Shown: in pieces, positions 25,052-28,776 of the stretch
How positions within the stretch are numbered: the stretch's first letter is position 1
Layout of the letters: each line of letters opens with the position of its first letter
NCBI GenBank assembly: GCA_022821145.1
Contig: JAJEEE010000042.1
Span: 1 to 45,843, forward strand
DNA length: 45,843 nt
Origin: Acidobacteriota bacterium
GTDB taxonomy: Bacteria; Acidobacteriota; Terriglobia; 20CM-2-55-15
Direction: 5' to 3'
Made by a program: the position numbers and the translations under genes
The notes under the pieces: generated by a model
Database searches by the model: none
The model's input: the letters and a program-made list of their open reading frames with translations, nothing else
Told to the model about the DNA's origin: nothing

Positions 25052-26086
25052 ATGATTCGATCGGGCCTGGTATGGACGGCCGCCCTGGCCGTCTCCGGCG
25101 CGGCCGCTCACCACAGCACCGTTGCGATCTACGATCAGAATCGCACGATCGAGGTGACGGGCGTCGTCAACGAGATCCATTGGCGGAACCCGCACGGACG
25201 GATCCTCCTCGACGTGGAGGACGCCCCGGGGGAGACGGTGCAATGGGAGGTCGAGACCCCGGCCGTCGTCATACTGCGAATCCTCGGCATCGGCCAGGGA
25301 TTCATCGCGCCCGGCGACCGCATCACGATCGCCGGCCCGCCGGCCCGCCGCGACCCGCACGGGATGAACGCGCGCAACATCCTGCTCGCAAGCGGTTACG
25401 AACTGGCCTTCGGACAGAACGTTCCCTACTTCGACGCCGGCAGGAACGGCAACCTGATCGGGCGCGCCTTCGACGATTCCAACGTCGAAGCCGCCATCGC
25501 CGCCGCCGACGGCATATTCCGCGTCTGGGCGACCAACATGGGCGACCCGGACGCGTTTCCGATGTTCAAGGGCGGCTACCCGCTGACGCCGGCGGCCGAA
25601 GAGGTGGTTGCGGAATGGGATCCGCTCGACAACGACCTGCTTCGCTGCGGCACGAAGGGCGCGCCCCTGATCATGATCACCCCGGCGCCGATCGAGCTCG
25701 TGCGCGAGGGCGACCGCATCCTCATGCGCATCGAGGAATACGATGCGCGCCGCGTCATCCACATGAACCCGGACGCCGCGCCGCCGGATGAGCACACGCA
25801 GATGGGGTTTTCCCGCGGGCGGTTCGAGGGCGACACGCTCGTCGTGGAGACCGACCGCATCCAGGCGCAGTACTTCGATCCCGACGGCGTGCCGCAGAGC
25901 GAGAAGATGTCGCTAGTCGAACGCTTCATGCCGAACGCCGATCACAGCCGCCTCGACTACCGGATCACCGTCACCGACCCGGTGTATTTCACGGAGCCGT
26001 TCGAGCTGACCCGCTACTTCGTCTGGAAGCCCGAAATGACCGTCGCGCCGTACGACTGCCTCGAACGTGACTGGAGGGTCGACTAG
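25052..26086 (+). CDS. DUF6152-family exported protein
   Basis: A 344-residue protein with a short signal peptide (SGLVWTAALAVSGAAA). The mature start is HHSTVAIYDQNRTIEVTGVVNEIHWRNPH, the hallmark of DUF6152: AHHS, then VxGxVxxxxWxNPH. The rest adds two strand-rich blocks (TAPDDEHTQ-like EHTQMGFSRGRFEGDTLVVE) and ends in a charged tail. The family is exported, common in acidobacteria and proteobacteria beside PQQ/cytochrome genes, and has no known activity; the conserved His pairs suggest metal binding. GGAGGT at 25041-25046 is a strong ribosome site. The stop codon (26084-26086) lies inside the left arm of the downstream foldback element. Confidence 0.82.
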   Translation: MIRSGLVWTAALAVSGAAAHHSTVAIYDQNRTIEVTGVVNEIHWRNPHGRILLDVEDAPGETVQWEVETPAVVILRILGIGQGFIAPGDRITIAGPPARRDPHGMNARNILLASGYELAFGQNVPYFDAGRNGNLIGRAFDDSNVEAAIAAADGIFRVWATNMGDPDAFPMFKGGYPLTPAAEEVVAEWDPLDNDLLRCGTKGAPLIMITPAPIELVREGDRILMRIEEYDARRVIHMNPDAAPPDEHTQMGFSRGRFEGDTLVVETDRIQAQYFDPDGVPQSEKMSLVERFMPNADHSRLDYRITVTDPVYFTEPFELTRYFVWKPEMTVAPYDCLERDWRVD

Positions 26087-26248
26087 GAGCCTGTGGTGAA
26101 ACCCCTGCTGCATTCGACCGGCGATGCATCCCGTCCGGACTGCGTTGCTCGTCGGTCACATATCGGGAATATGCTCCCTCCTCGCGCCTTGCCGGACGGG
26201 CGCCTCACCGGTCTCGGTGCGACGCGGGGTCTCACCACGGGCTCCTAG
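26083..26248. mobile_element. 166-bp foldback element resembling a MITE
   Basis: Terminal inverted repeats of 23 bp (26083-26105 and 26226-26248) match at 21 positions and begin CTAGGAGCC. Inside, the pairing continues with interruptions: for example CCCGTCCGG near 26130 with CCGGACGGG near 26192, and an apex CATAT-CGGGA-ATATG near 26159-26173. The whole element can fold into one long imperfect hairpin. There is no coding capacity of its own. It overlaps the stop codon of the DUF6152 gene and ends 35 bp before the next gene. The transposase family that would recognise these ends was not identified. Confidence 0.7.
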
Positions 26249-26283: not shown

Positions 26284-28776
26284 GTGACGACGGAAACCCT
26301 CGCCCGGTACCGGTCCGTGCCGGGCCACTACGACGAGTTGACCGGCCCGGACGGGACGACGCGTCCGCACTGGCGTCCGCTTCTCGACGTGATGGAGCGG
26401 TTGGGCCCCATCGAGCTGGAAAAGCGGGTCGAGGAAAGCCACCGGATCCTCAAGGACAACGGCGCCACGTACCATATCCAGCGCGAGTCGGGACCGCAGC
26501 GCGTGCGCCCGTGGCCCCTGGATCTGGTTCCCGTGGTCCTGGACGGCGCCGAATGGGACCGTTTGGCCCAGGGGGTCGCCCAGCGGGCGACGCTGCTCAA
26601 CACGATCCTGGCCGACCTCTACGGTCCCCGAAACCTGATTCGCGACCGGAAGCTGCCCGCCGATCTCTTGTACATCCACCCCGGTTTTCTCCGGCCTGTT
26701 TCCGGCATCGAACCCGTGGACGGGAACTGGCTGATGGTCTACGGCGTGGACCTGGCCCGCTCGGAAGACGGCGGATGGTGGGTCATCGGCGACCGGACCG
26801 ACGCGCCGGCGGGCATGGGATTCGCGCTGGAAAACCGCCTGGTTTCCAGCCGTACGCTGCCCGAGGCGTTCCATGCAGGGGTTCGCCGGCTATCGGGGTT
26901 CTTTCGCACACAGAAGGACACGTTCACCCGGCTGGCGCGCCATCATCGCGACAATCCGCGCGTCGTGCTGCTGTCGGGTGGGCCGGACACGGCGACCCAC
27001 TTCGAGCACGCGTTCATGGCGCGGTACCTTGGCTGCACGCTGGTCGAGGGGGCCGACCTGGCGGTGAAGGACCGGCGCGTGTTTCTCAAGACGCTCGGCG
27101 GCGCCTTGCCGGTCGACGTCGTTTGGCGCTGCCTGGACTCGGAATCCTGCGACCCACTGGAATTGGGGTCCGATTCGCTGGACGGCGCGCCCGGCCTGCT
27201 CGACAGCATGCGCGCCGGCAACGTCGTCATCGCGAACGCCCCGGGCGCCGGGTTCGCGGAGTCGCCGGCGCTGATGGCGTTCCTGCCGAACCTGGCGCGC
27301 CATTGCCTGGGCGAGGACCTCGGGATTCCGTCCGTCGCCACGTGGTGGTGCGGCCAGCCGCAGGCGCTGTCGGAAGCGTCCGAGCGCCTTTCCAGCCTGG
27401 TGGTCAAGCCCGCGTTCCCCGGCGCCGGCCGGGAACCCGCGTTCGGAAGCGCGCTGGCCGAGGCCGAACGCGCGGCCCTGCGCGACCGCATGTTCGCCGA
27501 TCCCCGCGCCTTCGTCGCGCAGGAACAGGTGTCGCTGTCCACGGTGCCCGTCCGCGAGGACGGCGACCTGGCGCCCCGGTATCTCGTGATCCGCGCCCTG
27601 GCGGTTTTCGACGGACAGGGTTACACGGTGATGCCGGGAGGGTTGGCGCGCGTTTCGCCCGACGCGACGTCGCTGGACGTCTCCGTGGCCGCCGGCGGCA
27701 GCAGCAAGGACCTCTGGGTCATGGGCGAGAGCGACGATCCGCCCGGAACGCTCCTGCCGGCCGTGCAGAAGCCCATTACCGTCAGCCGCGCGACGTTCGA
27801 CCTGTCCAGCCGCGTCGCCGGCAACCTGTACTGGCTCGGGCGCTACACGGAGCGCCTCGACGCGGCGGCGCGGCTCATCCGGGCGGCGTTGCCACTGTTG
27901 TCCCGTGAGTCGTCGACGACCGACGCGGCGTTGGCCGGGGCTCTGGGGTTCGTCCGCGCGCTGGGTTACGCGCGCACCGGCGCGGGCGCGGATCCCGGCG
28001 CCGACCTTCGGCGGACGCTGGCCGACGAAGTCCGGTTCGCCGTATCGGATGCGGACCGGAGGGGCGGGCTCGGGTGGCAGATCCGGCAGATCCACCGGAT
28101 GGCGTGGCTGCTCCGCGACCGTCTGTCGGCGGATGCCTGGATGATCGTCAGCGAGCTGCTCGCCGACTACGAGGATCCGGCGGCGGGGCCGCGGGAGCGG
28201 AATCTGGGCGCGGTGCTCGATCGGATCGTCATCGATCTGACCAGCTTCGGCGGCGCGGTGTCCGACACGATGACGCGCGGCCACGGATGGCGAATTCTGG
28301 AGATCGGGCGCCGGCTCGAGAGAGGCCTGCAACTCGGCGAGCTTCTGCGGCACGGGCTGGTCCGCGTGACCGACGACGAGCGCGCCCGGATCGAGCTGCT
28401 GCTGGTAGCCGCCGACAGCGGCATGACCTACCGCTCGCGGTACCTCACGTCGCTCCAGGCCGACCTGGTCATCGACCTGCTCCTCTTCGACGACGCGAAC
28501 CCGCGCGCCGTCGTGTTCCAGCTCGAGCGGCTGCGCGACCACGTGCAGTCCCTGCCCGCGGCCTCCCCGGCCGAGCGCCGCTCCCCGGAGGCGCGCCGGC
28601 TGACCGACGCCCTGGCCGCCGTCGAGCTCGCCGACCTGGACGCGCTGTCGGCCGCCGCCGACGGCGTTCGGACCGGGTTGGAACGGCTTCTCGACCGGCT
28701 GAACGCGAACCTGACCGGCCTGTCGGAAGACCTCACCCGGGACTATCTGGCCCACGCCGCGCTGTCGAAGCAGTAG
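26284..28776 (+). CDS. Fused circularly permuted ATP-grasp protein and alpha-E domain
   Basis: An 830-residue fusion. Residues 1 to about 490 form the type 2 circularly permuted ATP-grasp domain (COG2308 type): ESHRILKDNGATYHI, then RPWPLDLVPVVLD, FLRPVSGIEPVDGNW, NPRVVLLSGGPDTATHFEHAFMA, VVKPAFPGAGREPAFGS and GSSKDLWVMG. Residues about 515-830 are an alpha-E domain (COG2307), starting SRVAGNLYWLGRYTERLDAAARLIRA and later MTYRSRYLTS. ATP-grasp enzymes of this type are predicted to make amide bonds; alpha-E has no known activity. It starts at a GTG (26284). A transglutaminase gene follows after 7 bp. The same two domains recur as separate proteins on the opposite strand (29673-32100). Confidence 0.9.
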   Translation: MTTETLARYRSVPGHYDELTGPDGTTRPHWRPLLDVMERLGPIELEKRVEESHRILKDNGATYHIQRESGPQRVRPWPLDLVPVVLDGAEWDRLAQGVAQRATLLNTILADLYGPRNLIRDRKLPADLLYIHPGFLRPVSGIEPVDGNWLMVYGVDLARSEDGGWWVIGDRTDAPAGMGFALENRLVSSRTLPEAFHAGVRRLSGFFRTQKDTFTRLARHHRDNPRVVLLSGGPDTATHFEHAFMARYLGCTLVEGADLAVKDRRVFLKTLGGALPVDVVWRCLDSESCDPLELGSDSLDGAPGLLDSMRAGNVVIANAPGAGFAESPALMAFLPNLARHCLGEDLGIPSVATWWCGQPQALSEASERLSSLVVKPAFPGAGREPAFGSALAEAERAALRDRMFADPRAFVAQEQVSLSTVPVREDGDLAPRYLVIRALAVFDGQGYTVMPGGLARVSPDATSLDVSVAAGGSSKDLWVMGESDDPPGTLLPAVQKPITVSRATFDLSSRVAGNLYWLGRYTERLDAAARLIRAALPLLSRESSTTDAALAGALGFVRALGYARTGAGADPGADLRRTLADEVRFAVSDADRRGGLGWQIRQIHRMAWLLRDRLSADAWMIVSELLADYEDPAAGPRERNLGAVLDRIVIDLTSFGGAVSDTMTRGHGWRILEIGRRLERGLQLGELLRHGLVRVTDDERARIELLLVAADSGMTYRSRYLTSLQADLVIDLLLFDDANPRAVVFQLERLRDHVQSLPAASPAERRSPEARRLTDALAAVELADLDALSAAADGVRTGLERLLDRLNANLTGLSEDLTRDYLAHAALSKQ

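Follow-up and report, generated by a model that had tools for sequence, protein, structure and literature searches.

The window, by which we mean the whole 45,843-nucleotide stretch analysed, contains a 166-bp foldback element at positions 26083-26248. It lies between a gene for a DUF6152 protein and a gene with circularly permuted ATP-grasp and Alpha-E domains. The features of the locus are:

25052-26086, plus strand: upstream open reading frame (ORF), DUF6152 protein (Pfam DUF6152), 344 aa, ending inside the element's left CTAG
26083-26086, plus strand: left target copy CTAG, read from the sequence and from the 12/29 comparisons in which the empty site has just one 4-mer; its TAG is the stop of the DUF6152 ORF
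26087-26105, plus strand: left terminal inverted repeat GAGCCTGTGGTGAAACCCC, from comparison of the arms, conserved in the copies
26138-26193, minus strand: structured core at the apex, a hairpin surrounded by three tandem G.A/A.G motifs, from the match to model R2 and from covariation
26226-26244, plus strand: right terminal inverted repeat, from comparison of the arms
26245-26248, plus strand: right target copy CTAG, from the sequence, the copies and the empty sites
26284-28776, plus strand: downstream ORF, circularly permuted ATP-grasp and Alpha-E protein, 830 aa, starting 35 bp past the element

The arms of the element (26083-26105 and 26226-26248) are 23 nt long, complementary at 21/23 positions (91%) and separated by 120 nt. 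A sequence-only reading of this DNA had described these terminal inverted repeats, and it had also correctly placed the DUF6152 stop codon (TAG, 26084-26086) within the left arm and the element next to the ATP-grasp genes. On either strand, the ends read CTAGGAGCC. Folded as single-stranded DNA, the 166 nt reach -46.6 kcal/mol vs. -30.3 ± 3.25 kcal/mol for 200 shuffles (z -5.0, no shuffle as good). The same reading held that the interior folds back nearly throughout; strict pairing in the family consensus is confined to 41 of 83 mirror positions (38 Watson-Crick and three G.T). Being an imperfect rod, the interior needs bulges and internal loops for the rest of its fold. ORFs listed across the element run on into the flanking genes, and the element has no coding capacity of its own. 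A T-run is absent from the sequence to its right (GACCGGACCC). On both sides, the outermost 4 bp (CTAG) are most plausibly target copies, which leaves 158 bp (26087-26244) for the element proper.

The element is present in multiple copies. A DNA search found 21 copies (88-100% identity, two truncated at contig ends) in its own genome (G000; 4.18 Mb, 89 contigs) and about 40 (40 scored matches) in the sister genome (G001), which alone among the relatives searched belongs to the same genus. Per-copy tests were made on 48 complete copies from 51 loci, namely all 21 own-genome loci and 30 of the 40 sister loci. By flank similarity two sites are common to both genomes, and a third (L002) is probably shared as well. 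The window site is one of the two, and both species of the genus carry an identical element there. Joined flanks were searched in both directions, 17 own-genome sites against the sister and 26 sister sites against the own genome, which yielded 29 comparisons. Twelve of these found an empty site whose flanks are joined by exactly one 4-mer (CTAG four times, GTAG, TTAG and ATAG twice each, TCAG and ATAA once each); the remaining 17 came close with 2, 3, 5 or 6 nt, aligned poorly or contained a longer insert. Most copies have CTAG at both sides. Matching variants also occur, i.e., ATAG/ATAG (L005), TTAG/TTAG (L079, L093) and CTAA/CTAA (L015), and the variant target copies at the shared site L014/L102 likewise match on both sides. 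Since these variants are identical on both sides, they support a 4-bp duplication. Often a single base distinguishes the left target copy from the right one. L007 and L088 have on the left the 4-mer of the empty site (GTAG and ATAG, respectively) but CTAG on the right, which is not explained by a plain 4-bp duplication. As guesses, a mismatch of element and target may have been repaired, or the hairpin may have mediated a correction. With its copies, the empty sites in the sister and the target duplication, the feature is a mobile element, a non-autonomous MITE with a CTAG-type target duplication, and here the sequence-only reading was right.

Two sites, both among the 17 comparisons without a single 4-mer, have solo-end relics of 13-14 nt that start with ATAGGAGCC (L117 in the sister and L141 in the own genome), opposite a full element in the other genome (L020 and L095); the relics look like deletion scars of the element. 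The insertion site of L007 reads GTAGGAGCCTGT in its empty form (L113). This sequence resembles an element end, and either an older scar or a target preference may account for it.

CTAG, a palindrome, occurs eight times in the 45.8-kb window, and two of these are the element's own ends. A gene ends exactly in the element's TAG in 37/48 complete copies. Targeting of stop codons was considered and rejected, because background CTAG sites are gene ends as often by the same test (27/37 at other own-genome loci, 5/6 in the window). The elements sit at stop codons because the CTAG target itself mostly sits there. The proposal that insertion had altered the end of DUF6152 is thus unlikely: the target is CTAG/NTAG, empty sites elsewhere keep one such 4-mer and background CTAG sites are mostly gene ends. 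As the TAG belonged to the target, DUF6152 probably kept its end, and the TAG was most likely already its stop codon before insertion, although both genomes carry the element here and neither shows the site empty. Of these 37 copies, in the orientation of the window, 26 have the gene only on the left and eight only on the right (p 0.003; 25:8 without the duplicate site), so that a gene ending at an element is mostly antisense to the strand that folds better. This bias argues against a simple 3′-end mRNA stabiliser here. Among the Myxococcota elements described below, six are sense and four antisense and a bias of the 26:8 type was not seen; the orientation bias is lineage-specific or weak. Avoidance of a stable hairpin on the lagging-strand template would be a replication explanation, and is a guess.

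A mismatch-tolerant search with the element ends found an inverted pair 1.48 kb apart on contig C71 of the own genome. The insertion sequence (IS) that they delimit (G000:C71:7505-8987) has the ends CTAG followed by CAGCCTGTGGTGCAAT and encloses a 457-aa protein with DUF772 and DDE_Tnp_1 domains, a pair that is typical of the IS1182 family. The best of six NCBIfam models for this transposase is IS1182 (NF033551), with 168.1 bits, below the cut-off of 270. Transposase homologues (E ≤ 1e−40) are found in 39/399 genomes of the own class. Our survey of IS ends covered 27 loci (26 from the class and C71), 19 of which had usable ends by eye and 16 a recognisable end core; identical 4-bp target copies flank 11/16 such ISs with both ends located. 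The ends of these ISs read CAGCCYGTG, to which the window's GAGCCTGTGGTGAAAC is related. Those of the own-genome IS read CAGCC, not GAGCC, and agree with the element's terminal repeat at only 14/20 positions. The sequence-only reading had proposed looking for an intact element with a transposase and the same ends; the C71 IS is a candidate, with ends that are related rather than identical. In Myxococcota, the terminal repeat of element L224 agrees with the IS repeat of L142 at 19/20 positions. The 1.48-kb IS, with its related ends, CTAG target and IS1182-like transposase, is the likely candidate for the mobiliser. No such transposase was found at E ≤ 1e−40 in the sister genome (85% complete, about 40 copies), and none of 66 loci examined around Myxococcota and class elements contains a homologue. 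The core described below and the transposase occur together in three genomes (G000, G104, G304) vs. about 2.2 expected (from 23 and 39 of 399), i.e., there is no association by genome. A truncated relic of the IS transposase lies at G000:C23:39916-40588 (L068), in two pieces that are 87 and 74% identical, with the right end GGGCTGTTAG.

The interior carries a conserved single-strand core that the sequence-only reading missed. In most elements it reads 5′-C-GA-G-GA-GG-GA-GC, hairpin, GU-GA-CC-GA-C-GA-G-CAA-3′, with variants in some, and consists of three tandem G.A/A.G motifs and a CAA bulge. A 56-nt core model (R2) was built from 16 rows, the core from the window included; that core scores 76.3 bits against it (E 8.9e−18) as one of these 16 training rows. 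Covariation in the 16 cores is 0.417 vs. 0.175 ± 0.022, with 0/500 shuffles as high and slid structures at or below 0.104. Double-changed cells number 32 vs. 8.3 in shuffles. Paired cells make up 88.2% vs. 73.3% in shuffles, a measure favoured by a structure that was drawn from the same sequences. At E ≤ 0.01 the core is found in 23/399 genomes of the own class, and besides G000 and G001 there are at least 14 scored matches each in G343 and G366. It is common to elements with unrelated terminal repeats, including loci without identified CTAG ends (L073, L227, L228). No family in Rfam 15 fits the elements, on which only miRNA models match, below the gathering score; the core may represent a structured RNA family that Rfam lacks.

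Folding is biased to one strand. All 27 Myxococcota loci fold better on the model strand, having been chosen by a structure model, and the arms alone show the same bias in 24/24 Myxococcota elements of at least 150 nt, which were chosen with the full-length model. The strand bias is measured on structure-model matches throughout, and only the test on class arms avoids most of this circularity: of 26 class loci found by the core model alone, 22 give the better fold on the core strand when just the 50-nt arms flanking the core are folded; several of the 26 are near-copies of one another and so not all independent. The strand difference of random 106-mers from the window has a standard deviation of 6.5 kcal/mol, so that single cases say little. 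It is the consistent direction of the bias that points to selection on one folded strand, which may be RNA or else single-stranded DNA that arises in replication or transposition.

An exact 20-mer of the element end was searched in 84,980 species genomes and matched a sister-type Acidobacteria MAG, Plesiocystis pacifica SIR-1 and Nannocystaceae NORP301, the latter two belonging to another phylum, Myxococcota. The P. pacifica and NORP301 elements have an identical 22-bp end (CTAG included) on both sides and are also 166 nt long. Their interiors are 39-42% identical when aligned ungapped, vs. 33 and 29% when flipped (two comparisons), a similarity that exceeds that of shuffles (p 0.0006-0.003 per pair). 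A covariance model (R1) from 29 Acidobacteria copies and the two Myxococcota elements matched 19/29 genomes of the Plesiocystis order at E ≤ 0.01, often with many copies. We read 27 of these loci and, leaving out those with the core only, obtained 25 elements, of which 14 have CTAG at both ends, seven at one end and four at neither. The ends vary (CAGCCTGTGGTG, GAGCCTGTCCCC, TGCCGCGACCGG, TACCTCGCCGCA), and 23/25 are 163-167 nt long, the others being 152 and 115 nt. Elements of about 166 bp with other interiors or other terminal repeats occur in Myxococcota, P. pacifica included. A universal length of 166, suggested by three unrelated interiors, was rejected in view of the 152- and 115-nt elements and of class elements of about 197-271. 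In the own class, elements with the core and other ends have a length of about 197 nt in L366 and of about 264-271 nt elsewhere; these ends were placed automatically, and several rows are unreliable. L366, L367, L369, L372, L375 and L378 share the same core under other ends, at about 197 to 271 bp, and the right arm of some of these seems to contain another core-like stretch in inverted orientation. In one Myxococcota genome a tRNA gene (L215:1400-1478; Rfam, 56 bits) lies about 20 bp from an element. Among viruses there were 0 matches to the terminal repeat pattern and 0 to the core pattern; a 16-mer matched 120 stretches, none with the core, and 12 fuzzy matches had 8-9 mismatches. Plasmids and phages gave no match to a 54-nt core.

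We favor, with a probability of about 0.7, a MITE copy moved in trans, likely by an IS1182-like DDE transposase with a CTAG/NTAG target, the interior of which has a conserved single-strand core. The terminal repeats would be used in trans by the transposase, most likely of the IS1182-like DDE kind, and insertion would take place at CTAG/NTAG with about 4 bp duplicated. Surviving copies lie mostly exactly at gene ends because CTAG is rare here and mostly at stop codons. The interior is more than filler, since one strand, here the minus strand, folds to a long rod with the conserved core at its apex. In the mechanism that we prefer, the folded core may help the element to persist or to move, through binding of a host factor or because the hairpin is shown to a transposase that recognises structure.

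Three other explanations were weighed. The element could be a passive MITE, an IS-derived palindrome whose fold is a by-product and whose strand bias comes from strand-specific mutation. Its terminal repeats do resemble those of an IS, any long palindrome folds and there is little variation among the copies in one genome. We consider this unlikely, since the core is conserved and covaries across unrelated terminal repeats, also where CTAG ends were not identified, and tandem G.A mismatches are unexpected in a decaying palindrome. A structured RNA that spreads via an RNA or single-stranded DNA copy (retro- or HUH-type), with the terminal repeats as mere parts of the fold, would account for the folding on one strand, the conserved rod architecture and the mixed left and right target copies. 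The CTAG target copies and terminal repeats that the element has in common with a DDE insertion sequence make such a route improbable.

A regulatory hairpin fixed at the DUF6152/ATP-grasp locus and kept for its effect on these genes is the least probable of all. The sequence-only reading had tied it to the lack of a second copy and a conserved position in all relatives. Both species of the genus do have the same element at this site; however, the same sequence stands at 20 other places in the genome, many of them empty in the sister, which refutes this as the origin. A secondary local effect of the MITE on the locus is possible.

Among known systems, bacterial MITEs with folded transcripts and the IS1182 family come closest. 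In its passages on these families, a review describes ERIC/RU-1, Correia/NEMIS, RUP and YPAL/RU-2 as MITEs of 100-200 bp with terminal repeats, target duplication, a long stem-loop and folded transcripts, which an IS transposase is proposed to move, e.g., RUP with IS630-Spn1, and its table lists each for one genus or related bacterial group (PMC2229807). The element shares the size range, terminal repeats, target duplication, stem-loop and proposed IS mobilisation of ERIC, NEMIS and RUP. By these descriptions it differs from them in its target, CTAG/NTAG, which contains TA, vs. TA alone, and from ERIC, Correia, RUP and YPAL in a core common to different terminal repeats and two phyla. Some IS1182 members target palindromic sequences, and IS1272 replaces a stem-loop without duplication, according to the sections on this family in PMC5678879. 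The likeness to that account lies in the palindromic target and in a candidate transposase nearest to the NCBIfam IS1182 model; the differences are the score below the cut-off (168 vs. 270) and the target, duplicated here and not in IS1272. The paper suggests that transposases of this type may read structure, which for the present element would be an extrapolation (PMC5678879). Multicopy intergenic sequences of Geobacter metallireducens, paired or palindromic and in class 1 associated with ISs at a fixed distance, are alike in being multicopy, intergenic and palindromic, and by their descriptions a relation is no more than a lead (PMC2700814). In the literature searched we found no published account of the element or the core, and nothing on point on IS1182 with a CTAG target, as judged by title and abstract. 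Among the full-text matches to core words, those listed look like primer sequences, by their titles and abstracts.

Bacterial MITEs are usually regarded as IS debris. The recurrence of this core under different ends and in two phyla suggests an undescribed hitchhiking module. More tentatively, and somewhat against the odds, this could be a transferable module, a rod that folds strand-specifically around three tandem G.A motifs, rides different IS end types, has spread through at least two phyla, retains its fold when its ends are swapped and is mobilised partly by recognition of its structure. A core that survives the exchange of terminal repeats, covaries as a single strand and is common to Acidobacteriota and Myxococcota would mean that such elements carry a selected nucleic-acid structure, and it gives a test of how small gene-less elements persist and move.
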